Positions 19,279 through 52,878 of a DNA stretch of 64,000 nt are shown here, piece after piece (within the stretch, counting starts at the first letter, position 1; each line of letters starts with the position of its first letter). The DNA comes from Vampirovibrio chlorellavorus. GTDB taxonomy: Bacteria > Cyanobacteriota > Vampirovibrionia > Vampirovibrionales > Vampirovibrionaceae. Under the pieces are notes generated by a model. That model saw nothing but the letters and a program-made list of their open reading frames with translations. It did not search any database and was not told where the DNA came from. The translations under genes were made by a program, and so were the position numbers. The DNA lies in the NCBI GenBank assembly GCA_903866275.1, contig CAIPMU010000018.1, positions 62,001 through 126,000 on the forward strand. The letters run 5' to 3'.

Positions 19279-19461
19279 ACTCGCCCTCTCTTCCAACTAA
19301 CTTGCCCTCTTTCCAAAAAGAGGCAACACCTCTTTTCCTAAGCCAAAGGGCGCCACAGCCACGCGAAAGAAAACCACACTTGGCGGGGTTTGGGGGCAAC
19401 ACTGCCCCCAATGGAGGGAGTTTGAGGGAGGCTAGCCTCCCTCAAGCCAACCAGCTAAACC
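19279..19461 (-). repeat. 3'-end structured repeat element, copy 1
   Basis: First of three related intergenic elements (others at 40602-40771 and 41411-41620). It begins 25 bp after the stop of the minus-strand TPR gene with GGTTTAGCTGGT (minus strand). Hairpins: TTGAGGGAGGC/GCCTCCCTCAA (19422-19445, fully palindromic), GGGGGCA-ACAC-TGCCCCC (19392-19409), and the terminator-like AAAAGAGG-CAACA-CCTCTTTT (19316-19336). The left part has two GCCCTCT-type half copies. No ORF convincingly codes through it. Confidence 0.9.
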
Positions 19462-19486
19462 TAAAACCCACAGGCAAAAAATTACT

Positions 19487-20440
19487 CTAAGGATGACAAT
19501 TACTCTGCAAAAAAGCCCACAGATTCCCCGCTTCGGAAGCCCCAGCTTGCACCACTTGCTCATAATACCGCGCCGCGCGAACATAATCATCGGCGACGCA
19601 ATAGACGGTGCTGAGGTTGTAGCGGGCTTGCGTGATATTGTCCGCATCCAGAAAGTTATCCTTGAGGCGTAAAGCCTGATGGCTGTTTCTCAGGGCGTTT
19701 TCCCAATCGCGTTGATGAATGGCCGCCGTGGAAAGCCCGACATAGGCATCGGCGAGCAGGATATTCTGCTGGATGGCCTGATTGTATTCGATGACGGCCT
19801 GGGCCCATTCCTTGCGATCGCTGTAATAGACGCCGCGATTGTAGTGACTGAGGGCGGTATTCACGGCGCTGTCCTGCACGGTTCGCACAAAGCGGGCGTT
19901 GGGCGTAAAGCTGACGGGCTGAATACCTGGTTCTGTCCCAGAGGGCGGTAAGATTGTTTCGTCTTGTCCGGTGGCTTTTCTGAGCTTTTCGATTGCTTCT
20001 GGGTCATTCAGCTCAGCGTCGGCCAGACTTTTATTGTTGAATACGGCGGAATCCGGTGCGATGTTGGATGCCACCGAAGCGGCCTGGGCGTTGCTCATGA
20101 TGGGGTGCTCAACGTGGGAGGCGGTGCCTGGCAAGATGGGTTCCGGGGCAATGACCACGGGATGCGTTTTTTTGTGCCTGCCCGATGAAACGGGCATGGC
20201 GTTGGAGGGGTTGTTAGAATCTGATGGGTCGATTCGGCTTCTATCCGTGTAAACTGGTTGCGTGGAGAACTCATTTGCGTCAGACGAGGAATCCGGCATG
20301 AACGGCTTGGCAAGGACTGAGCCCTGAAGCAGGCAAACGCTCAAGGCCAGCATTAAGACGGGATGAAAGCCGCGCTTCGCATTGGCGGCGGTCAACCCTC
20401 GCTGAAGGTGTTTATGGGGACATAGTATCCAGATTTTCAT
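19487..20440 (-). CDS. secreted TPR-repeat protein
   Basis: 317 aa. Basic N-terminus, then hydrophobic VLMLALSVCLLQGSVLA (about 28-44): a signal peptide ending at A-K-P. A Ser/Pro/Asn-rich linker (45-190) is followed by three tetratricopeptide repeats from about 195: ALSHYNRGVYYSDRKEWAQA, ADAYVGLSTAAIHQRDWENA, and ARYNLSTVYCVADDYVRAARYYEQ. Probably a periplasmic or outer-membrane scaffold protein with no enzymatic residues. Last gene before repeat copy 1. The guaA gene lies 63 bp away in the same direction and ends before this one starts in transcription order. Confidence 0.82.
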   Translation of the reverse strand: MKIWILCPHKHLQRGLTAANAKRGFHPVLMLALSVCLLQGSVLAKPFMPDSSSDANEFSTQPVYTDRSRIDPSDSNNPSNAMPVSSGRHKKTHPVVIAPEPILPGTASHVEHPIMSNAQAASVASNIAPDSAVFNNKSLADAELNDPEAIEKLRKATGQDETILPPSGTEPGIQPVSFTPNARFVRTVQDSAVNTALSHYNRGVYYSDRKEWAQAVIEYNQAIQQNILLADAYVGLSTAAIHQRDWENALRNSHQALRLKDNFLDADNITQARYNLSTVYCVADDYVRAARYYEQVVQAGASEAGNLWAFLQSNCHP

Positions 20441-20503
20441 ATCCTGACGAACTCCGTTGGTGCGAGCCGTCGGGATAGAAGGGTTAATAGCGGCGTTCGG
20501 CTG

Positions 20504-22462
20504 CTACTCCCACTCCACTGTGGCCGGGGGCTTGCTGGTGATGTCGTACAGGATTAAGTCTACATTAGGCTGGCTGCCCAACGCGTCAACCAGATTGCGG
20601 ATAAATTGCAGCGGGAGTTCGTCCAGCAGGGCTGCGGGCCGGGCGGTCATATAATCGCTGGTGATCACGGCGCGCAACACAAAGGAGTGCTTGAAGCGGC
20701 CGCCACTGTGAATATCGGTATCCACCGGGATCATCACGGTAAAGAGCTGGCTAATGCGGTCATGCAGGTTTTCAGCGCGGAAGGCGTCGGTGACCATGCC
20801 ATCCAGCACACGCAATTTTTCCAGTGTGACCTCGTTCAGGTGCGTGGTGGTGATGGTTTTAATTTCGCGAGGCAGGGGTTTCTCATTGAGCAGCAAGGCC
20901 ACCCGGTTTACCGCGTGAATGCGGTTGGGGATTTTTTGAGCCAGCGCGCGGATCTCCGGCCAGGTCAGTTTAAAGAGATCCCCTTTGAGGGCGGCGCAAT
21001 AGCGATAGCTGCGGGCATCGCCTTGCACACCCACGCTCTGGATAGGCAGCAAGACAGCTTGTACGCCTGCTTCAGCCGCCAGCACCTGCAGGTTGCGATT
21101 GGCACTGTCGTACTCGTCGGTCAGGTAGGGGGTATCCGAGCAGAGTACCCGAATGGCCAGGCCTGGCCCGGGGAAAGGATGGCGCATCACCAGTTCTTCG
21201 GGCAGGCCCAGAATGCGGCCAACCTTGCGGACTTCGTCCTTGTGCCAGTCGCGGTTGGGCTCAATGATCAGGCCTTTCTTGCGCTGTTCCTGAATCAGGG
21301 GAACGTCGTTGTGGTGCGTCTTGATGGTGTGCGCCTGACTGCTTACATCCCGGTTGCCACTCTCGATGAGATCGGGGCGCAGGGTGCCCTGCGCGATAAA
21401 GGTATCGTTCAGGTTCAGGCCACTGCGCTGAATCGCGTCGGTGACCAGATGGTAAAACACGTCGCCAATAATGCGGCGTTTGATTTCGGGGTCGGTCACA
21501 TGGCGCAGGGGGCCAACGGTTTTGCCATCGATCTCCGTGGTGGCGTTCAGGAAGGTCTGTTCCGCGTCGACGCGCTCCAGATGTTTCAGGCCGATGGCTT
21601 TCAGGGCTTCGCAGACCAGATCGCTCTCCGATTCCCGCATCATGCCGGAATCGATGTGTACCGCGAAGACTTGTTCCGGGCGCAGGGCTTTCACCAGCAG
21701 GGCGGCGGTCACGCTGGAATCCACACCGCCGCTGACCAGGACGAATACGTTCTTGTCGCCCACTTGCGCGCGAATGGCATCCAGCGATTCATTCAGCCGA
21801 TCGCCCAGCGCGTGGCTACCGGTCAGTCCGCAGACTTTATAGAGAAAGTTCTCCAGCATGCGGCCCCCATTCACGCTGAGTTCCACCTCCGGGTGAAACT
21901 GCACCCCGTAAATGCGGGCTTTGGGGTTCTGGATGGCGGCCACCACATCGTGGTCATGGCTGTTTACGGAGCGCCCGACGATTTCAAAGCCGGGAGCGGG
22001 TTCGCCCACGCTGTCCCCGTGGCTCATCAGCACATGTTGCAGGGGGTCCAGCCCATCAAACAGGAGGCAATCCGGCTTTACGGTGACTTCCGTTTCGCCG
22101 TATTCCTTGGTGGGAGAGGGCAGGACTGTGCCACCGAAGTGACGGTTCAGGAGTTGCATCCCGTAGCAAATGCCAAATACGGGCAGGCCCAGTTCAAAAA
22201 TGGCGGGATCGCATTGCGGGGCGTCTGCTTCGTAAACACTATTGGGGCCCCCGGAGAGAATAATCCCGGAGAAGTCACCCTTGAGAAAATCCGCCTTCAC
22301 ATCCACCGGGAAGATGGCGGTGTCCACGTTTAATTCCCGCACCCGACGGTCGATCACCTTGGTATACTGCGCGCCACAGTCCAGCAGGGCAATTTTTTCA
22401 ACTTTTTTGGGGGCGCTGGCGGGGGATTGGTTCTGTTGGGCTTGGGGGGCGGTGGCGGTCAC
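20504..22462 (-). CDS. guaA: GMP synthase, long (eukaryote-type) form
   Basis: 652 aa against about 510-525 in most bacteria. Glutamine-hydrolysing GMP synthetase: XMP + Gln + ATP to GMP. Class I amidotransferase domain with Cys99 (GICYGMQ), His190 and Glu192 (QFHPE). PP-loop ATP pyrophosphatase SGGVDSS at 244-250, then HPFPGPGLAIR (428-438). After VGVQGDARSYRYCAALKG an extra block of about 100 residues (493-593) precedes VLRAVITSDYMTA, and the canonical end DITSKPPATVEWE is kept. The insert occupies the same place as in human-type GMPS (contains IPNRIHAVNRV-like and an HDRISQ segment). Possibly retained or transferred; functional because all catalytic motifs are intact. Confidence 0.95.
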   Translation of the reverse strand: MTATAPQAQQNQSPASAPKKVEKIALLDCGAQYTKVIDRRVRELNVDTAIFPVDVKADFLKGDFSGIILSGGPNSVYEADAPQCDPAIFELGLPVFGICYGMQLLNRHFGGTVLPSPTKEYGETEVTVKPDCLLFDGLDPLQHVLMSHGDSVGEPAPGFEIVGRSVNSHDHDVVAAIQNPKARIYGVQFHPEVELSVNGGRMLENFLYKVCGLTGSHALGDRLNESLDAIRAQVGDKNVFVLVSGGVDSSVTAALLVKALRPEQVFAVHIDSGMMRESESDLVCEALKAIGLKHLERVDAEQTFLNATTEIDGKTVGPLRHVTDPEIKRRIIGDVFYHLVTDAIQRSGLNLNDTFIAQGTLRPDLIESGNRDVSSQAHTIKTHHNDVPLIQEQRKKGLIIEPNRDWHKDEVRKVGRILGLPEELVMRHPFPGPGLAIRVLCSDTPYLTDEYDSANRNLQVLAAEAGVQAVLLPIQSVGVQGDARSYRYCAALKGDLFKLTWPEIRALAQKIPNRIHAVNRVALLLNEKPLPREIKTITTTHLNEVTLEKLRVLDGMVTDAFRAENLHDRISQLFTVMIPVDTDIHSGGRFKHSFVLRAVITSDYMTARPAALLDELPLQFIRNLVDALGSQPNVDLILYDITSKPPATVEWE

Positions 22463-22672
22463 GGGCGATTTCCTTCTGGGCGGCTGGCATCGGTAAAATG
22501 ACTGGCGTTTTTCATGGCGGCGGGTCAGAGATGGCCCGAAGGCTTGGGACTCAGTGTCATGAAAAAACGAAATTTTGGTTAGATTATAGCCTGAAGGAAG
22601 CCCCGCATGGAAAGGGCTTCTGAAAAAAGTGGGCGGGATGGGTGTTCCAAAGTTCGCCTTGCAAGGTCGTTT

Positions 22673-23398
22673 TTAAGCGAACAGCAACTTGTGCCGCAGA
22701 AGTTTTCCCAACAGGATGGCCGGGTTGCCGTCACGATCAAAGGCCGAAAAGCGGGGCACCGTAAAGCGGTGATCGCTGGCTTTCCACGGGCGGGTTTCCA
22801 CGGTCATGCCATAGGCGTAGGGGGTTTCTGCCATCATGTCCACCACCCGCTGATCATATTCGCCCCAGGGGTAGGCCATCACGGGCAGGTAGGCGTTTGG
22901 GAACAGTTCGCTCAGGATGCGGTGGGATTCGTGCAGCTCAAAGCGCAGCTCTTCGTCGTTTAGCTCCGGGAAGTGTCGGTGCAGCATCCCGTGACTGCCC
23001 AGGGTCATGTAAGGTGAGTCTGCCAAAGTCTGCATTTGCTCGATGGACATCAGTTGATCCCGCTCGGCTTCGGGTAGATCACCCTGATCCCAGACGTTGG
23101 TGCCGGAAAAACGACCGGGCAGCACAAACACAGTGGCTGGGCAGCGTTCTTGTTCCAGCACCGGCAGGGCTTCTTCCAGATTGTTCACATAGCCATCGTC
23201 AAAGGTCAGCACCACGCAGCGATCGCTGTTGGCCGTGGGATTGGAGGTACTCAAGGCTTCGCGCAGGGAAATGATGTTGAAACCGAGCAGACGAATCGTG
23301 CGAATAAAGCGGCTCAGGCCCTTGGGGGTGATGCTGATAATTTGGCGCGAGGGATGACGAAATTGGGCTTCGACGTGATGAAAGTTGAAGATTAACAT
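22673..23398 (-). CDS. polysaccharide deacetylase (NodB/CE4 family)
   Basis: 241 aa, no signal peptide. CE4 metal-dependent deacetylase acting on N-acetylated sugars. Motif 1 LTFDDGYVNNLEE (64-76) gives the Asp pair. Motif 2 SHGMLHRHF supplies the two zinc His. Motif 3 AYPWGEYDQRVV is near 175. The later motifs are degenerate, as in many capsule-associated members. It lies 68 bp after the GT4-GT2 fusion on the same strand, so it probably modifies the polysaccharide made by this locus or a lipid-linked intermediate. Lacks an export signal, so action on a cytoplasmic precursor is possible. Confidence 0.9.
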   Translation of the reverse strand: MLIFNFHHVEAQFRHPSRQIISITPKGLSRFIRTIRLLGFNIISLREALSTSNPTANSDRCVVLTFDDGYVNNLEEALPVLEQERCPATVFVLPGRFSGTNVWDQGDLPEAERDQLMSIEQMQTLADSPYMTLGSHGMLHRHFPELNDEELRFELHESHRILSELFPNAYLPVMAYPWGEYDQRVVDMMAETPYAYGMTVETRPWKASDHRFTVPRFSAFDRDGNPAILLGKLLRHKLLFA

Positions 23399-23466
23399 AT
23401 CGGGCAGGACTCCAGAAAAAGGGGCAAAAATGACTTTGATTGAACCGTTGAAAGCAAGTTGGAAAA

Positions 23467-25851
23467 TTATCGAGCGTGGGTTTGGGTGGGCTCAATATGC
23501 AGGTTGCTGGTAGAAGAAAGTCGGGACTGAATACGACCCGCCCAGACCGGGCCAATCAAGGTTTGAGTGATGCCTTGCACCAGCCAGCGCGTGGTGGACA
23601 TCCAGTTAAAGCGGGATTGAATGCTGAGCTTGGCGAGCAGTCCCTTTTTGCCACTGAAAAATTCAACCGACACATGGTGGGCGTTTGCCGACTGATGCGG
23701 CGTGGCAGGGCTTATCGCAGGCGAAGCCGTGTCGGTTGCAGGGGTGCTCTTGTCTTCCCGGTATTCCTGAAAGAGGCGCAGGGCATGGGCAAAGAAGTTG
23801 TACATCAGAAAGCGGAAGAACAGATTGCGTTGTTGCAACTGACGCAGGTGATGAAGCTTGGCCGGGCTTAGAATGCCTTGCAGGTTGTCCAGAATGGATA
23901 ACTCAGCGCTTAGGGCCTGCTCATAATTTTGCAAGACCTGACGACAACGGCCCGACATGCTTTGACGATACAGCACCAGACGCTCTCCGGTGGAGAACGC
24001 CGGGTAGTGCTGGCAGGCTTCGATGAAAAAGACCCGGTCTTCGTGGTAGCAACCCGGTTTAAAGCCGCCGACGGCTTCGACGATTTGGCGATGCACCAGC
24101 GTTGTGCTGGGCAAAAAGAGTCCTTCCTCATCCAGTACCGCCTGGGCGCAATCCCCGTTCAGGTGGGGCATGGGCGGCTGATGAATCAGCGCGTCCTGAT
24201 CATTCACGGCAAAGTAGCCACTGGTTACCAGACAGGCTGGTTGATCCGGGGTGGTGTGCTGGTGAATGATTCTCAGTTCTCGTTCCAGTTTGTTGGACAG
24301 CCACTGATCGTCCGCATCCAGAAACGCGATCCACTCGCCCTGAGCTTGTTCAAAGGCGTGATTTCTGGCGACGGCCACACCCTGATTGGGCTGACTGATC
24401 ACTTTGAGTCTGTCATCCCGGATTCGGCTTAGCTGGGACAGGGTGTTATCCGTGGATCCGTCATCCACCAGAATCAGCTCCAGACGATCGTGACTCTGAC
24501 CGAGCACGGAGGCGACGGCTCGCAAAATGGTGGCTTCCCCGTTGAAAACGGGCAAAATGACCGAAACCAGCGGCTTCATGTGGTCGTATACACGGGTGAG
24601 CTGGTCCATGAAGCGTTCAATCCCGAAGTCGGCGGCACGGGCCTGAAGCGCCTGTTGCAAGGCTTCCCGATCTGCAGGTTCAAGGGACAGCAACTGTTGG
24701 ACTTTCTGGCTCAGGCTGTTGACGTCATACACCGGGGCCAGTAAGTGCCGGGTGGCAGGCTGATTCAGAATCTCCTGAGGGCCGCCGCAATCGTAGGCCA
24801 CTACCGGCACTCCTGCGGCCATGGCCTCAACCAGACCCAAGCCAAAGCCTTCCCGGCTGGCGGGATGCACGACGACGTCTGCCAGAGAAAGCAAGGCCGG
24901 AATGTCGTTGCATAAGCCAATGTAACGGAAGTTGGGCAGATCCGCGCTGGCTTTCAGCATGGCGCCTTCCAAGGGGCCTTCTCCGGCCATGATAAAGCAA
25001 GGCACGGGCTGGCCGGTTTCCTGTGCGGCCTGCGTGACCAGTTTGGCCATTGCTACAAAGTCCAGCGGGTTTTTGTTGGAGTCCAGCCGATTGAAATAGA
25101 CCACCCGTCGAGATTGAGGCGAGGTGGGAATGGCCCAACGTCTGGCCAGGTTCAGTCCATCAGCAGCGTTGACCTTTTCTTGCCAGGCGGCAACAGGCAT
25201 GCCGTTGTGTAGCACCTTTGCCCGGTTCTCTTTGGGTAGGTAGCCTTCCTCGATCAGGCGCTGGTGTTCCACATTGCTAACCACCAGCATGGCATCCATA
25301 CGGCGGGCCGTTTCCCGGAACAAAAATCGGGTGAAATGCTTGAAGGCCCGTTTCAGGGGATTGGTGACCCCTGCCAGACTAAATAGGGTGCCATACCCAT
25401 GAAAGGTATAGACCACCGGATAGCCCAAGACTTGCAAGAGCACATTCTCCAGCAGGCCCATGTGGACATGAATGACATCCGGCTTTTCCTGTTTCAGCAG
25501 GCGAAGTGTTTCCAGAAAGCTGGGCAGATCGAAACTGCGGAGAAATGATTGGGCAAAAAACGTGCGATTGGGCAGGCCAAACAGCGGAACATCCAGTGCT
25601 TCCATTTGCTGATACAAGGGGCCGCCCGCCGAGCAGACCACCACCGGCTGAAAGTTTGGATGTTTTTCCAGTAGTTGGGTGGTTTGTAACAGGTACCTTT
25701 CTATACCGCCCATTACGGCAAAATCCTGATACAGCATCATGATTTTCAGGGGCCGCAGGGATTCTGGCTGCTGTGCACCCTCTGTCTGAACAGATTGATG
25801 TGCCAACAGTTTTAAGAATTGGGGCGATAAGGGGGGCATTGGATTGTTCAC
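23467..25851 (-). CDS. GT4-GT2 fused glycosyltransferase
   Basis: 794 aa from GTG 25851 (GCAGG 6-7 nt upstream; a TTG two codons earlier sits on that site). N-terminal half (about 35-425) is a GT-B family 4 enzyme: GGIERYLLQ, VIHVHMG, YTFHGYG, VSNVEHQR and the E-x7-E motif EGFGLGLVEAMAAG near 340. C-terminal half (about 430-700) is a GT-A family 2 enzyme: VSVILPVFNGEATI, LVDDGSTDNT and FLDADDQW with its DxD. The final 100 residues are linker-like and basic. Two sequential sugar additions from one polypeptide are likely. Same strand as the deacetylase, divergent from the export operon. Confidence 0.92.
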   Translation of the reverse strand: MNNPMPPLSPQFLKLLAHQSVQTEGAQQPESLRPLKIMMLYQDFAVMGGIERYLLQTTQLLEKHPNFQPVVVCSAGGPLYQQMEALDVPLFGLPNRTFFAQSFLRSFDLPSFLETLRLLKQEKPDVIHVHMGLLENVLLQVLGYPVVYTFHGYGTLFSLAGVTNPLKRAFKHFTRFLFRETARRMDAMLVVSNVEHQRLIEEGYLPKENRAKVLHNGMPVAAWQEKVNAADGLNLARRWAIPTSPQSRRVVYFNRLDSNKNPLDFVAMAKLVTQAAQETGQPVPCFIMAGEGPLEGAMLKASADLPNFRYIGLCNDIPALLSLADVVVHPASREGFGLGLVEAMAAGVPVVAYDCGGPQEILNQPATRHLLAPVYDVNSLSQKVQQLLSLEPADREALQQALQARAADFGIERFMDQLTRVYDHMKPLVSVILPVFNGEATILRAVASVLGQSHDRLELILVDDGSTDNTLSQLSRIRDDRLKVISQPNQGVAVARNHAFEQAQGEWIAFLDADDQWLSNKLERELRIIHQHTTPDQPACLVTSGYFAVNDQDALIHQPPMPHLNGDCAQAVLDEEGLFLPSTTLVHRQIVEAVGGFKPGCYHEDRVFFIEACQHYPAFSTGERLVLYRQSMSGRCRQVLQNYEQALSAELSILDNLQGILSPAKLHHLRQLQQRNLFFRFLMYNFFAHALRLFQEYREDKSTPATDTASPAISPATPHQSANAHHVSVEFFSGKKGLLAKLSIQSRFNWMSTTRWLVQGITQTLIGPVWAGRIQSRLSSTSNLHIEPTQTHAR

Positions 25852-26428
25852 ATTCAACCTGCAGGGTAATGATTGGTAAGGTGTGAGGAGGTGTCAGGAT
25901 AATTTCAAGGACGTTTGAATGCTGAATGGCTGGGTGAGGATAGTCTGTTCAGGATAATTCAGGTTTATCGCTAGGATTCATTCAACACATCTACTTCTAC
26001 TCATTAAAAGAGTACCACTCGCAAAATTGCGCGCCAATCGAATAACGTGTATTTTTAGTAATAATTTTTTGTAGCGTCAAAGCCTGCTGGCTGAATTGCC
26101 ATTGATGGCATGCATTGTCGGGTTATTTTGGGTATATAATTTGTCTGTTTTAAAAAACATTGTTTGATTGGGTTGTTATCTAAGCAAATTTTTCATGGGG
26201 TCGGAGTTTAGTTACGCAGCATCTCATGTTGTCTTGTATTGAGGACTGCCCAGGCCCTACTGGGGTCAGTCATTCCGGAGAGCATTCTGTGAGAGCTTCC
26301 TGTTCATCATTAGTCAGGTTTACCCGGGCGGCTGGATGCCTCTCAATGGGCCCCCGTCCCCGGTATGGTTCGTCTCACTCAAATTGATTTGGAATGTCTA
26401 TCGCTTTAGTAATCACAGGTATTTTGGA
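25852..26428. other. long divergent regulatory region of the polysaccharide locus
   Basis: 577 bp without a gene between two divergent polysaccharide operons. AT-rich up to about 26200. It holds a TGCCAT-TG-ATGGCA dyad (26097-26110) and a TATAAT (26135-26140) for the rightward operon, leaving a leader of nearly 290 nt. An ATG at 26336 in frame with the export gene lacks a ribosome site. Confidence 0.5.
26097..26140 (+). promoter_or_regulatory. candidate promoter and operator of the export operon
   Basis: Dyad TGCCAT-TG-ATGGCA at 26097-26110, then TTGTCG (26115-26120) and TATAAT (26135-26140). The 14-bp spacer is shorter than ideal, so the promoter may need an activator bound at the dyad. The inference is weak. 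Confidence 0.35.
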
Positions 26429-27574: not shown

Positions 27575-27679
27575 GCCAAAGACCCACTGCGTTAAACCTT
27601 TTCTGTACTACTTGGATTTTATTGTTCCCGATTGACTGCATTTTAAAATTTTCCCCACTCTTATTAGAGGAACCTGTTC

Positions 27680-30325: not shown

Positions 30326-30419
30326 GGTAAGGCACTCTCTGATTCAGCCGCCGGCTTCACTGCCTGAATTAACCTGCTACCCTATCCGCCCTGAAACGCT
30401 GAAAGTAGACCCTGATCCA

Positions 30420-33709: not shown

Positions 33710-34809
33710 GTCTTGATACGACATTCAGCCCGGAACGCTCATCCGAAGCGGTCAACCCGACACCGCTGGTGTCCATTATCATGCCCAGCTACAATGCGGG
33801 GAAATACATTGCGCGGGCCATTCAGTCCGTGCTTGAGCAAAGCTACCCGCACTGGGAGCTGATCATTGTGGATGATGCTTCCACGGACAACACCGAATCG
33901 GTAGTGGGCCAGTTCACCGATGCCCGCATTCAGTATCATCAGGTTGCCCGCATCGGGCATCCCGCCGGGGTGAGAAATACCGCTTTGCGTCTGGCCACTG
34001 GCGATCTGATCGCGTTTCTGGATTCGGACGATCTATACTTCCCGGACACGCTGACCAAGCTACTGCGCCCGCTGCAAACCAATCCCGCGCTGAATGCGGT
34101 GTATGGGTTTGCCTTTAACATGGATGAGCATGAGAACACATTGCCTCAGGGCGTGGAACTGTTGCCCGTGGCCCAGGCCAAGCTCGCGGCAGGCGAGTCG
34201 CCCTATGTGTTGCCCCCGACTTATAGCCATAGCTGGGAAAGCATCGTCACCGGGCAGATCAGTTGCATGCTGGCCGGGCTGATGATCCGCCGCGCCACAT
34301 GGGAGCAGGTCGGTTTCTTCAACGAAACCCTGTGCGGGCCGGAAGATTACGAATTCTATGTGCGCATGTTCCTGCATGATTATGAGAGCGTGTACTGCCT
34401 GAGCGATTATGTGTACAAGTACCGTATCCACTCGGCCAGCCTGACCAAGGCCCCCGAGCATTGTCAGCGGGTGCTGACCAGCTGCCTGAAAATCATGGAC
34501 TGGATGTTCACCGAGGCGGCATTGCCGGAAGCGGCCCATGCTTTTAAATCATTGGCTTATCTGGACTGTTATCGCTATCTGGCGCGGGAACGCTTGTTGA
34601 ACCATCAGCCCGCCATCTGCCGTCAGATTATTGCCCAGGCCGTGCAAGATCGGCATATTCAGCCTCGGGATCTCCTGCGGGGTTTTGCGCCCTTGTGGAT
34701 TCGTTCTTTTCTCCCCACCGGTTGGGATACCCTTCTGGTGCAACTCCGTTGCCAGTGGCGACGGATGAAAAACGCTCAGTCTCTCCAAACACCCTTGCGG
34801 GTGAATTGA
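33706..34809 (+). CDS. family 2 glycosyltransferase
   Basis: 367 aa. GT-A fold enzyme: VSIIMPSYNAGKYIARAIQSVL (24-45 region), IIVDDASTDNTESV, LIAFLDSDDLYFP with the DxD metal site, then GPEDYEFYVRM giving the ED base motif near 206. Cytosolic; adds one sugar of the repeat unit from a nucleotide sugar, identity unknown. Start ATG overlaps the flippase stop by 4 bp. The C-terminal 120 residues are helical with no membrane anchor. Confidence 0.93.
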   Translation: MSLDTTFSPERSSEAVNPTPLVSIIMPSYNAGKYIARAIQSVLEQSYPHWELIIVDDASTDNTESVVGQFTDARIQYHQVARIGHPAGVRNTALRLATGDLIAFLDSDDLYFPDTLTKLLRPLQTNPALNAVYGFAFNMDEHENTLPQGVELLPVAQAKLAAGESPYVLPPTYSHSWESIVTGQISCMLAGLMIRRATWEQVGFFNETLCGPEDYEFYVRMFLHDYESVYCLSDYVYKYRIHSASLTKAPEHCQRVLTSCLKIMDWMFTEAALPEAAHAFKSLAYLDCYRYLARERLLNHQPAICRQIIAQAVQDRHIQPRDLLRGFAPLWIRSFLPTGWDTLLVQLRCQWRRMKNAQSLQTPLRVN

Positions 34810-34827
34810 TAAAGGAACGCATTGCCC

Positions 34828-36060
34828 ATGTCCGTGAGCGATCTGCTCGAAACCCCGTCAGGGGAAAAGACAACCGAAGCCAACGGTTCCCTAGACAAGC
34901 CTGGCCGCTTGCCCTTGGTCGAACCGCCCCCCTATCAGGTTACGGTTATTCGGTCTCTGGCTGAATTTGCCCCTCTGCGCCAACCCTGGGATGCCTTTAT
35001 GAAGGCCAGTGGCTTACAGAACCTTTGCCTTTCGCACGGGTGGCTGCAGACCTGGCTTAGTCATTTCCCGCCGGATGAGTTGCTGATTATTCTGGTGCGC
35101 GATGCCCGAGGCGAGTGGGTGGGCGTGGCCCCCCTGCAAATCAAGCGCAGTCGCAATGGCTTGACGCATCGCCTGTTGCGTGCCGTGGAGTGGATTGGCA
35201 CCAACCCCAGCGTGTTTGACTGGATGCAGTTCATGATTCACCCACACGCCAACCCTGCCGAAGTCATTTCGGCCATGGCGGGTGTGATTCGGCAGGCCCA
35301 ATGGGATCTGCTGGAGCTGAAGTTCTGCCTGAACCATGAGCAACTGGAGCTGCTGGCGGATGCCCTGCCCGGCGCGGATCGTGAAGAAATCCTGCAAACC
35401 AACAGCATTCCCTATCTGGCGCTACCTGCCACGGTGGCCGACTATGAGCCCACCCGTCGCAAGAAGACCCGGCTGGAAGTGAACCGCCATAAAAACCGCT
35501 TTGCCAAGGAATTTGGCACCCCACCTCACCTCGATTTTTTACCTGCCGGGGAACCCAGTAACGCGATTTTAACCCGCTTTTTTGCCGGGCACATCAAGTA
35601 CTGGGCCGAACGGGGGCAAAAGAGCGATTTTCAACGCTTCCCCAAGCTGTTTCAGTTTTATAAGGACATGCTGAGCTATGCCCAAACCGAATGCCAGCCC
35701 GAAGACCCGCAGCTGTTGCTCTCGGTGCTGTCTGTGGCTGATCATCAACTGAGTTATCATCTGGGCTTTTGGCAAGGCAACGCCTACCTGAGCCATATCA
35801 CCCACTACAATCAGGGCTTCAAGGGCTACAGTCCCGGTACGATTCATATGGACGAGCTGGTGTTTGACACGCTGAAGCGGGCCAATGGCCGCGCGGGCAT
35901 TGAGTTTGAATTTGGTCGGGGTGACGAGCCCTATAAGAAAATGTGGACACAAACCAAAAAGCCGCTGTGGCAACTGCGCAGCTTTCGCAACCCCGTAAGT
36001 GCCGCCCTGTGGCAAATTGATGTCATACTGAAGACACTCCTGAAAAAGGGCTCTGAATGA
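34828..36060 (+). CDS. GNAT-type acyl/aminoacyl transferase (CelD/FemAB-like), first of two
   Basis: 410 aa from ATG 34828 (AAAGGA 11 nt upstream; a TTG at 34822 is only 5 nt from it and is the alternative). Twin GNAT-like folds of the BcsL/CelD (Acetyltransf_6) group: WDAFMKASGLQNLCLSHGWLQTW at the start, ATVADYEPTRRKKTRLEVNRH in the centre, and a late YSPGTIHMDELVF, EFGRGDEPYKKMW block. These proteins acylate polysaccharides or lipid-linked sugars. Followed with a 4-bp overlap by a second member. Confidence 0.82.
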   Translation: MSVSDLLETPSGEKTTEANGSLDKPGRLPLVEPPPYQVTVIRSLAEFAPLRQPWDAFMKASGLQNLCLSHGWLQTWLSHFPPDELLIILVRDARGEWVGVAPLQIKRSRNGLTHRLLRAVEWIGTNPSVFDWMQFMIHPHANPAEVISAMAGVIRQAQWDLLELKFCLNHEQLELLADALPGADREEILQTNSIPYLALPATVADYEPTRRKKTRLEVNRHKNRFAKEFGTPPHLDFLPAGEPSNAILTRFFAGHIKYWAERGQKSDFQRFPKLFQFYKDMLSYAQTECQPEDPQLLLSVLSVADHQLSYHLGFWQGNAYLSHITHYNQGFKGYSPGTIHMDELVFDTLKRANGRAGIEFEFGRGDEPYKKMWTQTKKPLWQLRSFRNPVSAALWQIDVILKTLLKKGSE

Positions 36061-37100
36061 TCACACCGCCTCTTGAACCATTGGATTTTTCCAAGCAGAA
36101 TAATGCCTCAACGGTCCTGCCCTTTAGCGGGCAGTCGATCGATTTTCCCTACGAAACTGCGTTGTTTCAGCAGTGCTGGTGGCGTCATCTGGCCTCCAAG
36201 TTTGATATTCCCGTGAAGATGGGCGATCTGCTGATCTGCAATAAGCCCTTGGTCAAAGGATTGATTAAACTCCGGGAAGCCCGTGTGGCGGGCTGGAATA
36301 ATGCCTGGCATCAGGATTTCACTCAACAGCGCGTGACGGAGCTGGAAGAGTTGGCCCACACCAGTGGCTGGGATTATTTTCGCCTGATCTGGCGTAATGA
36401 TCGTGAACACCTGCAAGCACTGGATGCGTTGCAGCAAACCGGTTTGCTCTGGTTGCAAAAGCCAGCGCCCACCCAATACTGGATCGATTTAAGTCAGGGT
36501 TTTGAGGCCTACCTGAGCACCCTCAGTGCCAACGGTCGTAAAAGCCTCCGCAAGAAAGCGCGGCGCAGTTTGCCGTTGAATCCGGAACTGGTGCCTTGTC
36601 ACACGGATGCAGAAATCGACGCCTTTTTCACCGAGTTTTTCCCGCACCACTTTGCCTACTGGGATGAAAAAGCGGGCGGCAGTTATTTCCATGATGTGGA
36701 AGAGCAGCAGTTCATCATCCACTGGGCCAAGGCCCTGAACCAGACCGGCGAACTCCTGCTGGATCGATTGGTGATGAACGGGGAAACCGTGAACATGAGC
36801 ATGGCCATTCGTACCGGCGATTCGGTGTACTGGCTGCTGACCCTCAACACGGGTCGCCTGCTGGAAGCCACACCGGGCATGGTGGGACTCTACATGCGAC
36901 TGGAGCATCTGGCTGCACAAGGTGTGAAACGCTTCGAAATGGGTTCCGGCGATTATTTTTACAAGGTGCAATCCGCCAACCGCCAGGAAACCTGCCAAGA
37001 ACTGATCGTCTGCAACCCTCGTTCGCTGAAGGGTCGTCTGTATTATCAGTGGGCCAAGCGCCAAAAACATCAGGCCGCTCCGGTTGCTTCGGAAGAATAG
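36057..37100 (+). CDS. GNAT-type acyl/aminoacyl transferase (CelD/FemAB-like), second of two
   Basis: 347 aa, overlaps the preceding gene by 4 bp. The same superfamily is shown by the central motif LSANGRKSLRKKARRSL (near 160), the strand LLLDRLVMNGETVNMSMAIR and the end VKRFEMGSGDYFYKVQ, which parallels FGRGDEPYKKMW of its neighbour. Low similarity elsewhere, so an old divergence and probably a different acceptor. Last gene of the export operon; no strong terminator follows. Likely adds an acyl or aminoacyl group to the repeat unit. Confidence 0.82.
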   Translation: MITPPLEPLDFSKQNNASTVLPFSGQSIDFPYETALFQQCWWRHLASKFDIPVKMGDLLICNKPLVKGLIKLREARVAGWNNAWHQDFTQQRVTELEELAHTSGWDYFRLIWRNDREHLQALDALQQTGLLWLQKPAPTQYWIDLSQGFEAYLSTLSANGRKSLRKKARRSLPLNPELVPCHTDAEIDAFFTEFFPHHFAYWDEKAGGSYFHDVEEQQFIIHWAKALNQTGELLLDRLVMNGETVNMSMAIRTGDSVYWLLTLNTGRLLEATPGMVGLYMRLEHLAAQGVKRFEMGSGDYFYKVQSANRQETCQELIVCNPRSLKGRLYYQWAKRQKHQAAPVASEE

Positions 37101-37258
37101 TTAGGGTCGAATAGTCAGGCTCAACTCATCAAAAAAAATCATCAAATCAGGCGCGGGAATAGCCGGTCGATTTTGAAGATTTCGTTGCGCTGCCCGATTT
37201 GAAAAACCGGGCTAAAATGGAGTGAGATAGGCGAGTGATTTTTAGGGAGCGTGCGCGG

Positions 37259-38020
37259 ATGCGAGACAAGCGGATATTATTTCATTGGGCGTTAAGGGTG
37301 AGTATGATCGGCCTCACCGGGGCGTGGCTCATGCCGGGTGCTGAGGCGCAAATTATTATGCCCGAACTGCCCCAGATCATGGTCAGTATTCCCCTGACCG
37401 ATGCTGCCAAACCGCTCCCGGAAGAGCCCCCGGCGCTGCAGGCAGAACCTGCCTCCACGCCTGTAAAATCGAATGCGGAAAAATCGGTCGAGTCGGATCC
37501 TCCTCAATCTGTCCCGGCACAGAGCGACCGAAAGCCTGAGCCCATGAGCGTGCCGGTTGCGCCTGCAACTGTTATTCCGTCTCCTTCCGCCCACACCGGT
37601 CCGGTGGCCAGTGTACTGGATTTAACGAAAGCTCAAAAGGCCAAACTCAAAGCCCTGCGCAAAAATTTCGTGGCGGACAATCAGGCGGCCTTCGATAGCC
37701 TGCGCATTAAACGCTACCTGATCAAGCAGCTCAAGGCCCCACAAGAAGCACTGCAACGCAGTCAGCTTCAGTCAGAAGTACAGCAGGAATTGGCTTTGCT
37801 CAAACGGAAAAAAGAAGCCACCCTGCAATATATTCTCAGTGCAGAGCAATACAGCAAACTGCAAGCCCACCGGTTAAAGCTGCAAGCCGAGAAAACCACT
37901 CACAAGGCGCAAGAGCGACTGCATGTATCCAGCAAGGCCGAAACCCCAAAAGCGGCCGAAAAACACGCCGACCAAAAAATATCCCGCGAGATTAAAAATC
38001 TGCCCAGGCATTTGTTTTAG
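37259..38020 (+). CDS. secreted Spy/CpxP-like (LTXXQ) protein
   Basis: 253 aa from ATG 37259 (AGGGAG about 9 nt upstream; the GTG at 37235 is less likely). Signal peptide LRVSMIGLTGAWLMPGAEA ends near residue 31, then a Pro-rich spacer (35-118). The helical domain has LDLTKAQKAKLKALRKNF (about 122-139) and LSAEQYSKLQAHRLKLQ (about 197-213), the two LTxxQ-like motifs of periplasmic Spy/CpxP stress chaperones. A charged Lys/Glu/His tail follows. Probably a periplasmic chaperone or envelope stress sensor. 10 bp from the convergent MFS gene. Confidence 0.7.
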   Translation: MRDKRILFHWALRVSMIGLTGAWLMPGAEAQIIMPELPQIMVSIPLTDAAKPLPEEPPALQAEPASTPVKSNAEKSVESDPPQSVPAQSDRKPEPMSVPVAPATVIPSPSAHTGPVASVLDLTKAQKAKLKALRKNFVADNQAAFDSLRIKRYLIKQLKAPQEALQRSQLQSEVQQELALLKRKKEATLQYILSAEQYSKLQAHRLKLQAEKTTHKAQERLHVSSKAETPKAAEKHADQKISREIKNLPRHLF

Positions 38021-38030
38021 AGCCAATTCC

Positions 38031-39350
38031 CTACGATGTCGTTTTGAGGTAATGTGCGCCTTCGGGGATGCCAATGCGGGGCATCTCCCAGGCAAAAATG
38101 CCAGCGCCTACCAGACAGAGGGTGCCGCCAAAGATCAGGGTGGGGGTGAGTCCCCAGTGGGTGGCCATGGTCCCAATCAGCAGGCCGCCAAACGGGGTGA
38201 TGCCCAGAAAAGACATGGCATACAGGCTCATCACCCGGCCGCGTTTGCTTTCCTCCGCCCAGGTTTGCAGCAGGATGTTGCTACAGGCCATCTGCATCAT
38301 CATCCCCAAACCCAGCAGGAACGATAACATCAGCGATAACCACAGCACTCGGGAGAGGGAGAATATAATCAGGGTGAGTCCGAAGAGGGTGGGCGCCCGG
38401 TAAATCAAACGTTCCAGCCCCTGTTCATCTGGCCGGGAGGCCAGATACAAGGCCCCTGCCAATGCGCCTGCGCCCACGGCACCCATCAGAAAGCCCAGCG
38501 TTTCCGGGCCGCCATGCAGGACAGTGCGCACGTAGACCGGCACCAGCACGGAATAGGGCAGGCCCACGAGACTCACCAGCGCCACCAGCCCCAGAATGTT
38601 TCTCAGGGCAGGGGTGTGATAGACGTAGGCGACGCCCTCCCGTAAACTATGCCAGTAACCCACGGTATGCGCCACGGGTTTGTAAGGTTTCAGGTGAATT
38701 TGACTTAAGGCGATGATCACGGCGCTGTAGCTGAGCCCGTTGAGCAGAAAGCACCAGCCTTCCCCCCATTGGGCAATGGCCAGACCCGCCAGAGCAGGCC
38801 CAACCAGTCTCGCCCCGTTAAAGACCGAGGCATTCAGGGAGATGGCGTTGCTGAGATCGCGACGATCTTCCAGTAAGTCGGGCACAAAAGCCTGCCGGAT
38901 GGGGGTATCCACGCCGGTCACTATGCCCAGACAGCCGCCGAGCAGAAAGAGGTGCCAGACCTGAACCTGCCCGGTGAGGGTTAAAGCGGCCAGAATCAAA
39001 GCCTGAAGCATGGCCAGGCTTTGGGTGGCCATGAGTAACTTGCGACGATCCAGCCGATCCGAGAGGCCCCCGGCCAGCGGGGAAATAATAAAACCCGGCC
39101 CGTTGCTGACAAAGGCCATCAGGCCCAGCAGGAAGGGGCTGTGGGTTAAGCGATAGAGCAGCCAGCTCATGGCCATCTGTTGCATCCATGTGCCCAACAG
39201 GGAAACCAGTTGCCCGGACACAAAGAGGCGGAAGTTGCGATGTACCAGCGCACGAAAGGTTTTTCGCCACCCGCTGATCGGGGAGGCAGGCTGTGATGGT
39301 CCCGCGTGATTGACGGGTGACGTTGCATTGTGTGGGTTCATGTCGGGCAT
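38031..39350 (-). CDS. MFS transporter (EntS/MFS_3 type)
   Basis: 439 aa, 12 membrane segments. Major facilitator exporter: cytoplasmic loop 2-3 motif GGLSDRLDRRKLLM (about 95-108) with the conserved Asp/Arg pattern, and DTPIRQAFVPDLLEDRRDLSNAISLNAS-type block typical of the enterobactin-exporter-like MFS_3 group (given here in part: RQAFVPDLL, NAISLN, RLVGPALAG). Likely exports a small hydrophobic molecule or siderophore; the substrate is unknown. ATG 39350 has GAGAGG about 10 nt upstream. Confidence 0.92.
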   Translation of the reverse strand: MPDMNPHNATSPVNHAGPSQPASPISGWRKTFRALVHRNFRLFVSGQLVSLLGTWMQQMAMSWLLYRLTHSPFLLGLMAFVSNGPGFIISPLAGGLSDRLDRRKLLMATQSLAMLQALILAALTLTGQVQVWHLFLLGGCLGIVTGVDTPIRQAFVPDLLEDRRDLSNAISLNASVFNGARLVGPALAGLAIAQWGEGWCFLLNGLSYSAVIIALSQIHLKPYKPVAHTVGYWHSLREGVAYVYHTPALRNILGLVALVSLVGLPYSVLVPVYVRTVLHGGPETLGFLMGAVGAGALAGALYLASRPDEQGLERLIYRAPTLFGLTLIIFSLSRVLWLSLMLSFLLGLGMMMQMACSNILLQTWAEESKRGRVMSLYAMSFLGITPFGGLLIGTMATHWGLTPTLIFGGTLCLVGAGIFAWEMPRIGIPEGAHYLKTTS

Positions 39351-39462
39351 GAAACGGAAGCCTCTCTCCTGCCATTATAAGGGGAATCGCCCGGCAAAGG
39401 CGAAAGCCAGCCGAAGGTGGCTCGACTCTCTGGCCAAAATATAGCGCTGGAATAAAATGGCT

Positions 39463-40245
39463 TTAGTTGCTTGCCTGAGTCAGTGCGGGCGTTTTACTCC
39501 CCAGAAAGGCTTCCCAGCGGGTGACCAGAGCCACGGGGGTTTCAATCATGGGGTAATGGCCCGCCTTGGGCAAGGCTTCGAGGGTGGATTGGGGGAACCA
39601 TTTGGCAATGGTGTTTTCCATCAGCTCTAACGTGATCACGGGGTCTTGCGCGCCTACCAGCACCAGAAAGGGGGTGATCAAACCGGCCACTTGCTCTTCA
39701 AAATGGGTCAAAGACCAGGCGGTCAGGTAGGCATCAAAGGCCTCGGGGGTGGTTTGAGCCAGGGAGCGTTGGGCCATGGTTTTCCCAAAAGCAGGGGTCA
39801 ACTGGTTGCCGGTGGTATACATCAGGATGGTTTCACGGTTTTGGGCGTTATCCCGTGCCCCGCGAAAGAGGGCCATAGTGTCCCCATCCATCGGAAATCC
39901 ACTGGCTGGCACTGGCGTCAGGCCTACCAGGGCCGTCACGCGATCCGGGGCATGGGCGGCAATCCATTGAATGGCCATTCCCCCCATGGAATGCCCAATC
40001 AGGCTAAAGCGTTCCCAACCCAGGGCCTCGGCCAGATCCAGCGCATCCTGCCCGATTTCGGGAATACTAAAATCGCCGTTCAGGTGGGTCGATTGCCCAT
40101 AACCCCGATAATCCATAAAGGCATAGGTATAAGTATCCAGATCCAGAAAGGGTTTAACGGGATCAAAGGCGGAGCCATCCCCGAACCAGCCGTGAAGGAC
40201 AATGACGTTGTGAGGACCATGACCCAAACATTGATAACCAATCAT
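39463..40245 (-). CDS. alpha/beta hydrolase
   Basis: 260 aa from ATG 40245 (GAAGGG 9 nt upstream; the longer TTG frame is not supported). Cytosolic alpha/beta-hydrolase fold: oxyanion HGW (near 18), strand MDYRGYGQS, nucleophile elbow GHSMGGM (Ser near 84), acid Asp in VLVGAQDPVI, and catalytic His in PKAGHYPMIETP near 240. Resembles MhpC/BioH-type carboxyl-ester or C-C hydrolases; the substrate cannot be told. Single gene. Confidence 0.92.
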   Translation of the reverse strand: MIGYQCLGHGPHNVIVLHGWFGDGSAFDPVKPFLDLDTYTYAFMDYRGYGQSTHLNGDFSIPEIGQDALDLAEALGWERFSLIGHSMGGMAIQWIAAHAPDRVTALVGLTPVPASGFPMDGDTMALFRGARDNAQNRETILMYTTGNQLTPAFGKTMAQRSLAQTTPEAFDAYLTAWSLTHFEEQVAGLITPFLVLVGAQDPVITLELMENTIAKWFPQSTLEALPKAGHYPMIETPVALVTRWEAFLGSKTPALTQASN

Positions 40246-40601
40246 GTCGTAGTTCCCTTCGTTCAACGATGCCAAAAATATCGAAGCCTGATTGTAATGC
40301 GTTGTCAGTGCAACATGGATTCACCGCCATTTTTTCATTGGCATTCATTCAATCAGGTGTTTAACTAAAGTTACCTATGCCCCATTGTATCAGCTTCATA
40401 GCATACACTCACCCCACTGTATCCCCTTGTGAATCATCAAACAGAATCAATAGGGTTCAAAATAATCCCGGTTTTCAAGAAGACTCTCATGATTAATTCA
40501 AATTTCTGTCCCGATTAAAAAATCGGTTCCCCAAGCAAACAAATTAACAATCAACCAGCCAACCCACTCTCTGGATTTCAAAATAGTCTCAACTCACTCT
40601 C
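40246..40601. other. intergenic region left of repeat copy 2
   Basis: About 355 bp with no gene. It contains the promoter of the hydrolase gene (minus strand; no clear boxes) and a CCGATT-AAAA-AATCGG hairpin at 40511-40526 that a leftward transcript leaving repeat copy 2 would meet. Confidence 0.4.
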
Positions 40602-40771
40602 CCAACCAACTCGCCCACTCGCCAAAAAGAGGCAAAGCCTCTTTTCCTAAACCAAAGGGCGCCACAGCCACGCAACAGAAAACAACACTTGGCGGGGTTT
40701 GGGGGCAACACTGCCCCCAATGGAGGGAGTTTGAGGGAGGCTAGCCTCCCTCAAGACCCACCAGCTAAACC
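40602..40771 (-). repeat. 3'-end structured repeat element, copy 2
   Basis: Nearly identical to copy 1 from 40622 on. Starts 16 bp after the peroxiredoxin stop (minus strand) with the same GGTTTAGCTGGT. Hairpins: TTGAGGGAGGC/GCCTCCCTCAA (40731-40754), GGGGGCA-ACAC-TGCCCCC (40701-40718) and AAAAGAGGC-AAA-GCCTCTTTT (40625-40645). The last loop is AAA, where copy 1 has CAACA within a shorter stem. Confidence 0.9.
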
Positions 40772-40787
40772 CGAAAACGCAAAAAAC

Positions 40788-41252
40788 CTACTTCAGCGCC
40801 TGAATCACATCAGCCAATTCACTATTGGGCGGCAGCCCCTGCTTGGAATAGCGAATAATGCCGGTTTTATCAATGATGTAGACGGTGCGTTGAATGCCTT
40901 TGCCGTCTTCTTTCAGGGCATGGTAAGCCTTGGCCATAGAGCGATCGGCATCGACGAGGATGGGAAACTCATAGCCCTGAGCGGCACGGAAGCGTTCATG
41001 GCTTTCCACGGAGTCGGGGTTGGAGCCAATAAACTGGGTGTTCAGCTGGCGGAACATTTCGGTGTCATCCCGGAGGGCGCAGAGTTGCTGGGTGCAACCG
41101 GGGGTTTGATCTTTCGGGTAGAAAACGATGATCAGGTTTTTGCCTTTAAAATCGGAGAGTTTGACTTGCAGACCACCGGTGGCAGGCAGGTCAAAATCGG
41201 GGGCTTGCAGGCCGACGGGTAGGGGTTGATAGGTTTCAACAATCGTCATCAT
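40788..41252 (-). CDS. bcp: peroxiredoxin, BCP/PrxQ type
   Basis: 154 aa from the ATG at 41252, placed 6 nt after AGGGAG; the ATG at 41258 would sit on the ribosome site. Thiol peroxidase that reduces H2O2 and organic peroxides using thioredoxin. APDFDLPATGG near the start, KNLIIVFYPKDQTPGCTQQLCALRD gives (in part) PGCT with the peroxidatic Cys and, five residues on, the resolving Cys of atypical 2-Cys PrxQ. The catalytic Arg lies in the later FPILVDAD-RSM region. Single gene followed by repeat copy 2. Confidence 0.95.
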   Translation of the reverse strand: MMTIVETYQPLPVGLQAPDFDLPATGGLQVKLSDFKGKNLIIVFYPKDQTPGCTQQLCALRDDTEMFRQLNTQFIGSNPDSVESHERFRAAQGYEFPILVDADRSMAKAYHALKEDGKGIQRTVYIIDKTGIIRYSKQGLPPNSELADVIQALK

Positions 41253-41410
41253 ACACATCTCCCTGATTATTGTAAAAATGGATAGAGGGTTGTTTGTTCG
41301 CGTATCCTAGCACAATCCCAGCCATACCGCTGTAACCAAGGTGCTAATTTTCCAGAGCCATCACTAACCCATCAGGTAATTCAATGTAGTTACCCGAAGC
41401 TTAAAAATTC

Positions 41411-41620
41411 CCACTAACCTGCCCTCTCTCCCAAAAGAGGCAAAGCGTCCCATCCATCCGCCCTCTCTCCAAAAAGAGGCTTTGCCTCTTTTCCTAAGCC
41501 AAAAGGCGCACCTGCGCCCACCAGAAAAACGATCTTTGGCGGGGTTTGGGGGGCGCCAGCTGCCCCCCAATGGAGGGCGTTTGAGGGAGGCTAGCCTCCC
41601 TCAAGCCAACCAGCTAAACC
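41411..41620 (-). repeat. 3'-end structured repeat element, copy 3 (diverged, extended)
   Basis: Begins 7 bp after the CBS-protein stop (minus strand) with GGTTTAGCTGGT. Hairpins: TTGAGGGAGGC/GCCTCCCTCAA (41581-41604), a lengthened GGGGGGC/GCCCCCC (41548-41568) and AAAAGAGGC-TTT-GCCTCTTTT (41472-41492). Here the middle has its own GGCGCA-CC-TGCGCC stem that copies 1 and 2 lack. The left end carries an additional partial unit (CCCTCTCTCCCAAAAGAGGC, 41422-41441). Differences fall in loops or keep pairing. The 41253-41410 remainder is the peroxiredoxin promoter region, with no gene. Confidence 0.88.
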
Positions 41621-41627
41621 TGAAACC

Positions 41628-42044
41628 CTAACGATTCACCACCAACAACCGAAGAATATCGGAGGTACTCACCACCCCCACCAGCTGATTCTCGGCATCG
41701 GCCACAAACAACCGGTGAATGTGCTTTTGATGCATCAGGGTAATGGCGGTCTGGACGGTATCTGTGTCCATCACATACAGTGGGGGATTCTGATTCATCA
41801 GTTCGCGCACCAGAATGTGTTGCGGATCGCGTTTGGCTTGCAGGGTTTTCAGAAAACGCAAGCTGGCAATGTCGCTTTTGGAGATAACACCGCTGTAGAT
41901 GGTTTTATCCGCAGAGCGCACGGGCAGGGCACTGATGTTGCATTGATCCAGCAATTGCACGGCCAGGAAAACAGAATCGGTTTCGTTCACTTCCCGAATG
42001 GTGGCCGATTTCATGATTTGCTGGATGGGTTGACGGTAGACCAA
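41628..42044 (-). CDS. CBS-domain pair protein
   Basis: 138 aa from TTG 42044 (AAAGGG 8 nt upstream; the later ATG at 42014 would cut into the first CBS strand). Two CBS motifs: IQQIMKSATIREVNETDSVFLAVQLL to ISKSDIAS (first, 8-62) and VRELMNQNPPLYVMDTDTV to GVVSTSDILRLL (second, 75-136) (quoted in part). Forms a Bateman module that binds adenosine nucleotides; no partner domain is attached, so it probably regulates another protein. Stop is 7 bp before repeat copy 3 in transcription order. Confidence 0.92.
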   Translation of the reverse strand: MVYRQPIQQIMKSATIREVNETDSVFLAVQLLDQCNISALPVRSADKTIYSGVISKSDIASLRFLKTLQAKRDPQHILVRELMNQNPPLYVMDTDTVQTAITLMHQKHIHRLFVADAENQLVGVVSTSDILRLLVVNR

Positions 42045-45679: not shown

Positions 45680-45750
45680 TAGACTGTCCTTTAATAAGGT
45701 GTACTGATTTTATACAACGGGCGGAAATGACTGCCCTAATCGCGTCTTAT

Positions 45751-52643: not shown

Positions 52644-52663
52644 TTCATTCTTTTTTAGAGTCG

Positions 52664-52701
52664 AAAACAACCCGTTTCTTTTATCAGAGCGGGTTGTTTT
52701 T
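52664..52701 (+). terminator. terminator of small-protein gene 1
   Basis: AAAACAACCCG and CGGGTTGTTTTTG stem with a 15-nt loop. Confidence 0.9.
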
Positions 52702-52878
52702 GTTTGATCATCTTCTATCCCGCCAGATAATCTTCCTAGCAGGCGTTCCCTGATTTGAAAACTGCGCTTATGGGCAATGGCTTGTTTCAACGCTTGAGAT
52801 GATAATCAACCTAACCCATTTTAATTAGATTTTTAAAAACATCACTTGTTAGATGTCGTTGGTAGGAGGATACATTTC

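Follow-up and report, generated by a model that had tools for sequence, protein, structure and literature searches.

To our knowledge, triplex motifs of bacteria have been known since 2000 without an assigned function, and we know of no gene-related placement for those of E. coli. Intrastrand triplex motifs are divided into a pyrimidine-motif and a purine-motif class (PMC4666352), and G/C-rich triplex motifs are abundant in cyanobacteria (PMC4666352). According to Hoyne & Maher (2002), as cited in PMC4666352, the E. coli motifs have no promoter or terminator activity. C-G-C pyrimidine triplexes prefer acid pH (PMC4666352). In Xanthomonas, there is a precedent for strand-biased non-B repeats near stop codons (PMC4692102), and the REPs of E. 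coli often mark the 3' ends of mRNAs (PMC2817692, PMC3116915, PMC3733652).

The window, i.e. the whole 64-kb stretch of DNA that was analysed (C18:62001-126000), contains three copies of a structured element; their coordinates are covariance-model (CM) matches converted to window positions. All three lie on the minus strand, each 3' of a minus-strand stop codon, and thus the model matches and stop positions bear out the initial annotation, which had placed three same-orientation copies behind the TPR, peroxiredoxin and CBS genes. The fixed hairpin order described there was also found in all three copies, each of which possesses the 24-nt palindrome TTGAGGGAGGCTAGCCTCCCTCAA, a G5-6/C5-6 stem and a terminator-like AAAAGAGG/CCTCTTTT stem. 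It overlooked a key part of the anatomy, namely the mirror-image third strands after hairpins 1 and 2. The features are as follows (TM1 and TM2, triplex motifs 1 and 2).

19297..19461, minus strand: copy 1, 3' of the TPR gene (stop 19487-19489); CM 191.3 bits, BLAST 92% to copy 2
19422..19445, minus strand: copy 1 hairpin 1 (TM1 duplex), 24-nt palindrome
19413..19420, minus strand: copy 1 TM1 third strand, minus-strand CTCCCTCC, mirror of the hairpin 3' arm
19390..19411, minus strand: copy 1 hairpin 2 (TM2 duplex); third strand CCCC just 3', past AAA
19316..19336, minus strand: copy 1 hairpin 3, terminator-like AAAAGAGG/CCTCTTTT
40606..40771, minus strand: copy 2, 3' of the peroxiredoxin gene (stop 40788-40790); CM 199.4 bits, BLAST query
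40731..40754, minus strand: copy 2 hairpin 1 (TM1 duplex)
40722..40729, minus strand: copy 2 TM1 third strand
40699..40720, minus strand: copy 2 hairpin 2 (TM2 duplex)
40625..40645, minus strand: copy 2 hairpin 3, transcript-sense loop TTT
41453..41620, minus strand: copy 3, 3' of the CBS-domain gene (stop 41628-41630); CM 158.8 bits, 83% to copy 2
41581..41604, minus strand: copy 3 hairpin 1 (TM1 duplex)
41572..41579, minus strand: copy 3 TM1 third strand, single T-to-G change
41546..41570, minus strand: copy 3 hairpin 2, long form
41472..41492, minus strand: copy 3 hairpin 3, inverted loop (transcript-sense AAA)
41410..41449, minus strand: incomplete second terminator-hairpin module, 3' end of copy 3 (repeat family D5)

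In these copies, hairpin 1 starts 25-43 nt past the stop codon. The duplicated terminator module of copy 3 (41410-41449) matches 41449-41488, and the internal repeats D3-D6 of the window show 77-97% identity. Two further repeats were observed in the window, a tandem pair of ~199-aa paralogues (45116-46086; 92% DNA identity across 300 nt) and a 209-nt direct repeat (52434-53171; 80% identity, 529 nt spacing).

The element begins with a T-rich 5' end containing stop codons, which is followed by TM1, TM2, a linker of ~60 nt and the terminator-like hairpin with T5. TM1 consists of the hairpin GAGGGAGG/CCTCCCTC and the mirror third strand CTCCCTCC, the 3' arm of hairpin 1 being followed by AAA and then by its own mirror image (CCTCCCTC-AAA-CTCCCTCC). 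TM2 consists of a GGGG/CCCC stem and a CCCC third strand in the analogous arrangement CCCC-AAA-CCCC. With a GGAGGGAG-type duplex, a 4-nt loop, an AAA loop and 8 triads, which are GCC or ATT in nearly all copies, TM1 lies within the ITxF criteria (stem 6-15, loops 1-6); TM2, with just 4-5 C triads, lies below them. Judged by its base order, the purine-pyrimidine-pyrimidine arrangement is able to fold into an intrastrand triplex of the pyrimidine class; for the complementary strand, the corresponding fold is of the purine class. Conservation within the element is highest in hairpins 1 and 2, neither of which has a U-tract. Hairpin 3 carries T5, yet the T-run is paired inside its own stem, and the terminator scan did not call this hairpin as a terminator.

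A BLAST search of the host genome (3.0 Mb, 20 contigs) yielded ~40 copies. With the covariance model R1, which was built on the 37-copy alignment A1, 45 copies of ~166 nt each were counted at a score of at least 46 bits. The genome-wide model search that the initial annotation had proposed thus shows a family well beyond three members, and copy number and structure (RNA fold z = -3.2) are far beyond chance. Gene calls came from a codon-usage script, supplemented by manual checks for missed small ORFs. In sense orientation behind a gene were 43 of the 45 copies, 42 of which start at most ~110 nt past the stop of the upstream gene; L029 is the second tandem copy behind the gene that also precedes L004. 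The two others (L016 and L017) have no same-strand upstream gene, and with these gene calls none of the 45 copies was antisense after a stop. Hairpin 1 starts 8-75 nt past the stop (median 34), and on average the element is set off from the stop by 10% of the free spacer (z -7.7 vs uniform). The tabulated distances and strands therefore speak against a scatter without respect to stop codons or strand, which had been named as the outcome that would count against a 3'-end module.

Downstream genes lie on the same strand in 17 cases and on the opposite strand in 13, and convergent gene pairs may bear one copy apiece, facing each other (L039; L026/L040; L046). T-runs of at least 5 within 12 nt of the stop occurred in 11 of 31 element genes vs 4 of 68 others (p 4e-4), so that a T-tract probably forms the 5' end of the element. 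At L011 and L020, the stop codon is supplied by the element itself. No shared function was found among the host genes upstream of the elements. Two aberrant loci were observed. L045 (C14:107906-108080), behind rpsU, is degenerate: a terminator AAAAAGCCC..GGGGGCTTTTTTT stands in place of the triplex part, and the 3' hairpin module is retained. At L307:1342-1400, two element 5' ends stand head to head and form one long palindrome (GGTTTAGCTGATTGGTATTAGGGGGCAAGCCCCCTAATACCAATCAGCTAAACC), which is possibly a by-product of DNA-level hairpin processing.

Standard pairs occupy 96.6% of the pair cells in alignment A1, and slid registers fall to 43-74%. Double changes at 10 pairs amount to 48 cells vs 15 in shuffles that ignore relatedness among the 37 copies. 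The covariation read from three copies by the initial annotation thus holds on 37; as a proof of selection it does not suffice. The AAA and TTT loops of hairpin 3 are reverse complements, which means that some copies (L027, L041) underwent inversion of the whole hairpin at the DNA level, and such DNA-level events add to the apparent covariation. Palindromes are, moreover, able to self-correct through template switching, the mutational process to which stem covariation is usually ascribed. For both reasons, two-strand covariation alone is no proof of selection. A possible pseudoknot between the hairpin-2 loop and a downstream GCCA/GGCA was also checked; both sides are swapped in 3 copies, and two subfamilies explain much of this.

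Palindrome self-correction cannot yield a third-strand change in triplex register. In 36 copies, the third strand showed 95.5% identity to the mirror of the stem arm vs 48% to a direct copy. Across four sets of sequences, shuffles failed to attain the mirror score in 3. In three triads all three strands switch together between ATT and GCC, L042 being the clean case with two positions swapped. The third strand as an alternative Watson-Crick partner of the 5' arm was rejected, as variable copies match reverse(Y) and not Y. Maintenance of a triplex-capable fold is well supported, although the independent third-strand changes are few and the shuffles ignore relatedness.

Judged by their sequences, the repeat families in the 3' spacers of congeners and the sister genus differ from that of the host yet share its design. 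The family of the congeners G003 and G004 reads CAAGGGGC..GCCCCTTG-ACCCC-ACTGGAGGGGG..CCCCCTCCAG-ACCTCCC with the mirror CCCTCC-AGA-CCTCCC and is for the most part sense-oriented 3' of stop codons, at a typical distance of 7-56 nt. This family is nearly invariant, so that the permutation test, in which 94 of 2000 shuffles attained the observed score, is not informative. Palindromes of the type GTCATTCCCGCGNNNGCGGGAATCC were observed downstream of many of these elements and at some host loci (L226-L242, L039 flanks). The sister genus G005 contains a third family (~270 bp, 24 matches), whose loci (L308-L327, end CGCTTGCTGTGCGCC..GCCGCTA) have a fixed orientation opposite to the anchor gene. Its third strand tracks the stem (TCTCC-AAA-CCTCT, CCCTC-AAA-CTCCC, TCCCC-AAA-CCCCT, TTCCC-AAA-CCCTC, CCCTC-TTCA-CTCCC), which excludes a mere alternative Watson-Crick partner; mirror identity was 85% and 98% vs 44% and 91% for the direct register, and none of 2000 shuffles reached the observed value. 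Third-strand changes in this family and in the one clean host copy follow the Hoogsteen and not the Watson-Crick register. The G005 copies lie in 3' spacers mostly antisense to the anchor gene, and in tandem contexts 7 antisense and 0 sense copies were counted with a gene model trained on 16 ORFs. Common to the families are therefore the DNA motif and its address, not the transcribed strand. That the host and sister-genus families keep the triplex pattern while mutating suggests that the fold matters at gene ends.

The hairpin-2 core pattern matches many phyla, mostly cyanobacteria, Bacteroidota and Alphaproteobacteria, with dozens of copies in one Ruminococcus MAG from rabbit gut. The element of this MAG (L048-L126, CANQWR01 contigs) has three hairpins, is triplex-like and reads GGGGGC..GCCCCC-TGAACCCCC-ATTGGGGGC..GCCCCC-AAACCCCC-GTCGGGGGG..CCCCCC-GAACCCCCC. 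No strand or stop-codon rule was found for this family (15 ++, 11 --, 5 +-, 2 -+), and placement therefore does not follow from the motif.

By BLAST, the host family was not detected in 38 relatives, except for one short match in G005. For 20 of the genes upstream of an element, orthologs exist in G003 and G004, and none of the 20 orthologous 3' ends carries the element, which makes the host copies recent gains. With regard to hot spots common to several species, only 1 of 10 host orthologs of G003/G004 element genes bears an element. In several host loci (L006, L012, L028) a terminator-like hairpin lies 3' of the element, and at L006 the stretch adjoining this terminator (ACGCATTG ... AAAGCCCG) is common to the host and the empty site of G003, so that the element was inserted between stop and terminator; at L024 the order is reversed, with the element behind the terminator. 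The 3' spacers of the relatives are too diverged for a base-exact empty site in which a target duplication could be recognized. The ends of the element (5' GGTTTAGCTG vs 3' GGGCGAGTTTT) are not complementary, i.e. terminal inverted repeats are absent. What was observed directly is absence at orthologous sites; mobility of the element is inferred. Y1 transposase (PF01797; controls positive), reverse transcriptase and IS110 were not found in the host; a derivative of a retroelement or group II intron and IS110-driven targeting were therefore rejected.

The Rho RNA-binding domain (PF07497) was found neither in the host nor in 28 relatives of its class (29 genomes screened, 22 of good quality; controls positive 9/14). 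Cyanobacteria are without Rho (PMC13289151), and should the host prove to be a cyanobacterial relative, Rho loss seems to reach beyond the photosynthetic members.

We consider the element to be a dispersed, lineage-specific, non-coding 3'-end cassette of two triplex-capable hairpins and a terminator-like hairpin that would aid 3'-end formation or protection, and we give this role, which location, terminator-like hairpin and Rho-less host point to, about an even chance. The cassette has spread to ~45 sites just past stop codons, in sense and usually ahead of the native terminator, a position at which its transcription as 3' UTR is to be expected. When the gene end is transcribed, the triplex-capable blocks might fold in unwound DNA and/or nascent RNA, causing RNA polymerase to stall and protecting the newly made 3' end against exonucleases; release of the transcript would fall to the last hairpin together with the native terminator. 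Such a process would suit a Rho-less clade. The second family of the congeners, with the same place and orientation, and the third strand of the sister-genus family, which appears to change in step, are consistent with this role. Several points count against it: the stem-paired, uncalled T-run of hairpin 3, native terminators downstream that make the element's own terminator redundant, the acid-pH preference of C-G-C pyrimidine triplexes (PMC4666352), and E. coli motifs without terminator activity in Hoyne & Maher (2002) as cited in PMC4666352. The mostly antisense G005 family further implies that an RNA-strand-specific role is not general. That same opposite strand use would fit a DNA-level device, in which triplex/H-DNA or a cruciform at transcription-unit ends absorbs supercoiling or blocks collisions irrespective of the strand transcribed. 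Triplex-capable DNA in 3' spacers is the only property common to all three families, and the hairpin 3 inversions (TTT vs AAA loop) show palindrome extrusion or recombination at the DNA level. However, a strand-symmetric device has no need for the strict one-way orientation within each family, and we regard it as distinctly unlikely.

Somewhat doubtful, though conceivable, is a selfish miniature mobile element without host function, whose transposase targets the stop-codon/3'-UTR region one way and whose structure serves transposition or its own neutrality. The recent lineage-specific burst with absence at orthologous sites, the sharp position preference, the lack of a shared function among host genes and the stop codons supplied by L011 and L020, as if inserted into the CDS end, would fit such an element, whereas terminal inverted repeats are absent and none of the three mobility types searched (Y1 transposase, reverse transcriptase, IS110) was found. 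Mobility itself explains neither the third-strand covariation nor the common design and location of different families in relatives. A plain mobile intrinsic terminator, with the triplex look as a by-product of G/C-rich palindromes, could account for the terminal GAGGC/GCCTC hairpin with T5 and for the 3'-end position in a Rho-less host. It is highly improbable, since the best conserved hairpins 1 and 2 lack a U-tract, native terminators persist 3' of the element, and the mirror third strand lies far above the direct-repeat register, with shuffles falling short in 3 of 4 sets. Going beyond the 3'-end cassette of the host, this Rho-less clade might repeatedly invent or recruit triplex-forming 3'-end cassettes, the Hoogsteen covariation reflecting selection on the triplex itself; we hold this to be rather unlikely. 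If true, triple helices would be a working part of bacterial transcript ending. With three related families, natural sets of variants are at hand for a direct test.

The statement of the initial annotation that nothing known matches was wrong in kind, considering the intrastrand triplex motifs of bacteria (PMC4666352) and the stop-proximal, strand-biased repeats of Xanthomonas (PMC4692102). Rfam 15 gave no match over the gathering score for the whole window and several loci. Its suggestion of a REP-like element also fails. REP, BIME and REPIN sequences (PMC2817692, PMC3116915, PMC3733652) are likewise palindromic, intergenic and dispersed, but REPs have 20-40 nt, whereas the host element is several times longer (166 nt), has a single orientation and comes without a RAYT/Y1 transposase. 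A GTAG or CGTC tag beside the hairpin is absent, the conserved flank being CTGRTTGGTCTT; with neither this tag nor PF01797, membership in the REP/RAYT group was rejected. MITEs and the pneumococcal BOX and RUP elements are also small, non-coding, dispersed and modular; unlike MITEs, the host element has no terminal inverted repeats, and no Y1 transposase was found. With Rho-independent terminators it shares a G/C stem and T5, but its T-run is stem-paired and belongs to the last of three structures. The GGGAATC repeats of Xanthomonas and Nostoc (PMC4692102) differ as heptamer tandem repeats that form a quadruplex instead of a triplex, have no terminator hairpin and, in Xcc, share the coding strand with the aligned ORF in only ~30% of cases. 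What the 45-copy survey supports is the description as a dispersed, lineage-specific, strictly oriented structured element located in 3' UTRs. Its closest relatives in design are BoxC/PIT/TM_ECO (Holder et al. 2015, PMC4666352), which also combine a duplex hairpin with a same-strand third strand and, like the bacterial intrastrand triplex motifs in general, are G/C-rich and intergenic with lineage-variable copy number. The TM_ECO subtype CCCTCNCCCN3-6GGGNGAGGGN3GGGNGAGGG was rejected for the host element, as the block order differs (PMC4666352), with purine-pyrimidine-pyrimidine blocks along the sense strand of the host element. TM_ECO has ~37 nt in pyrimidine-purine-purine order, whereas the host element comprises 166 nt with two purine-pyrimidine-pyrimidine motifs and a terminator-like hairpin; TM_ECO shows no strand bias and no distance rule and lies more often upstream of ORFs (PMC4666352), whereas the host element is tied to stop codons. 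The triplex motifs described here are thus set apart from TM_ECO by a strict address and direction and by a third strand that changes with the stem in triplex register.
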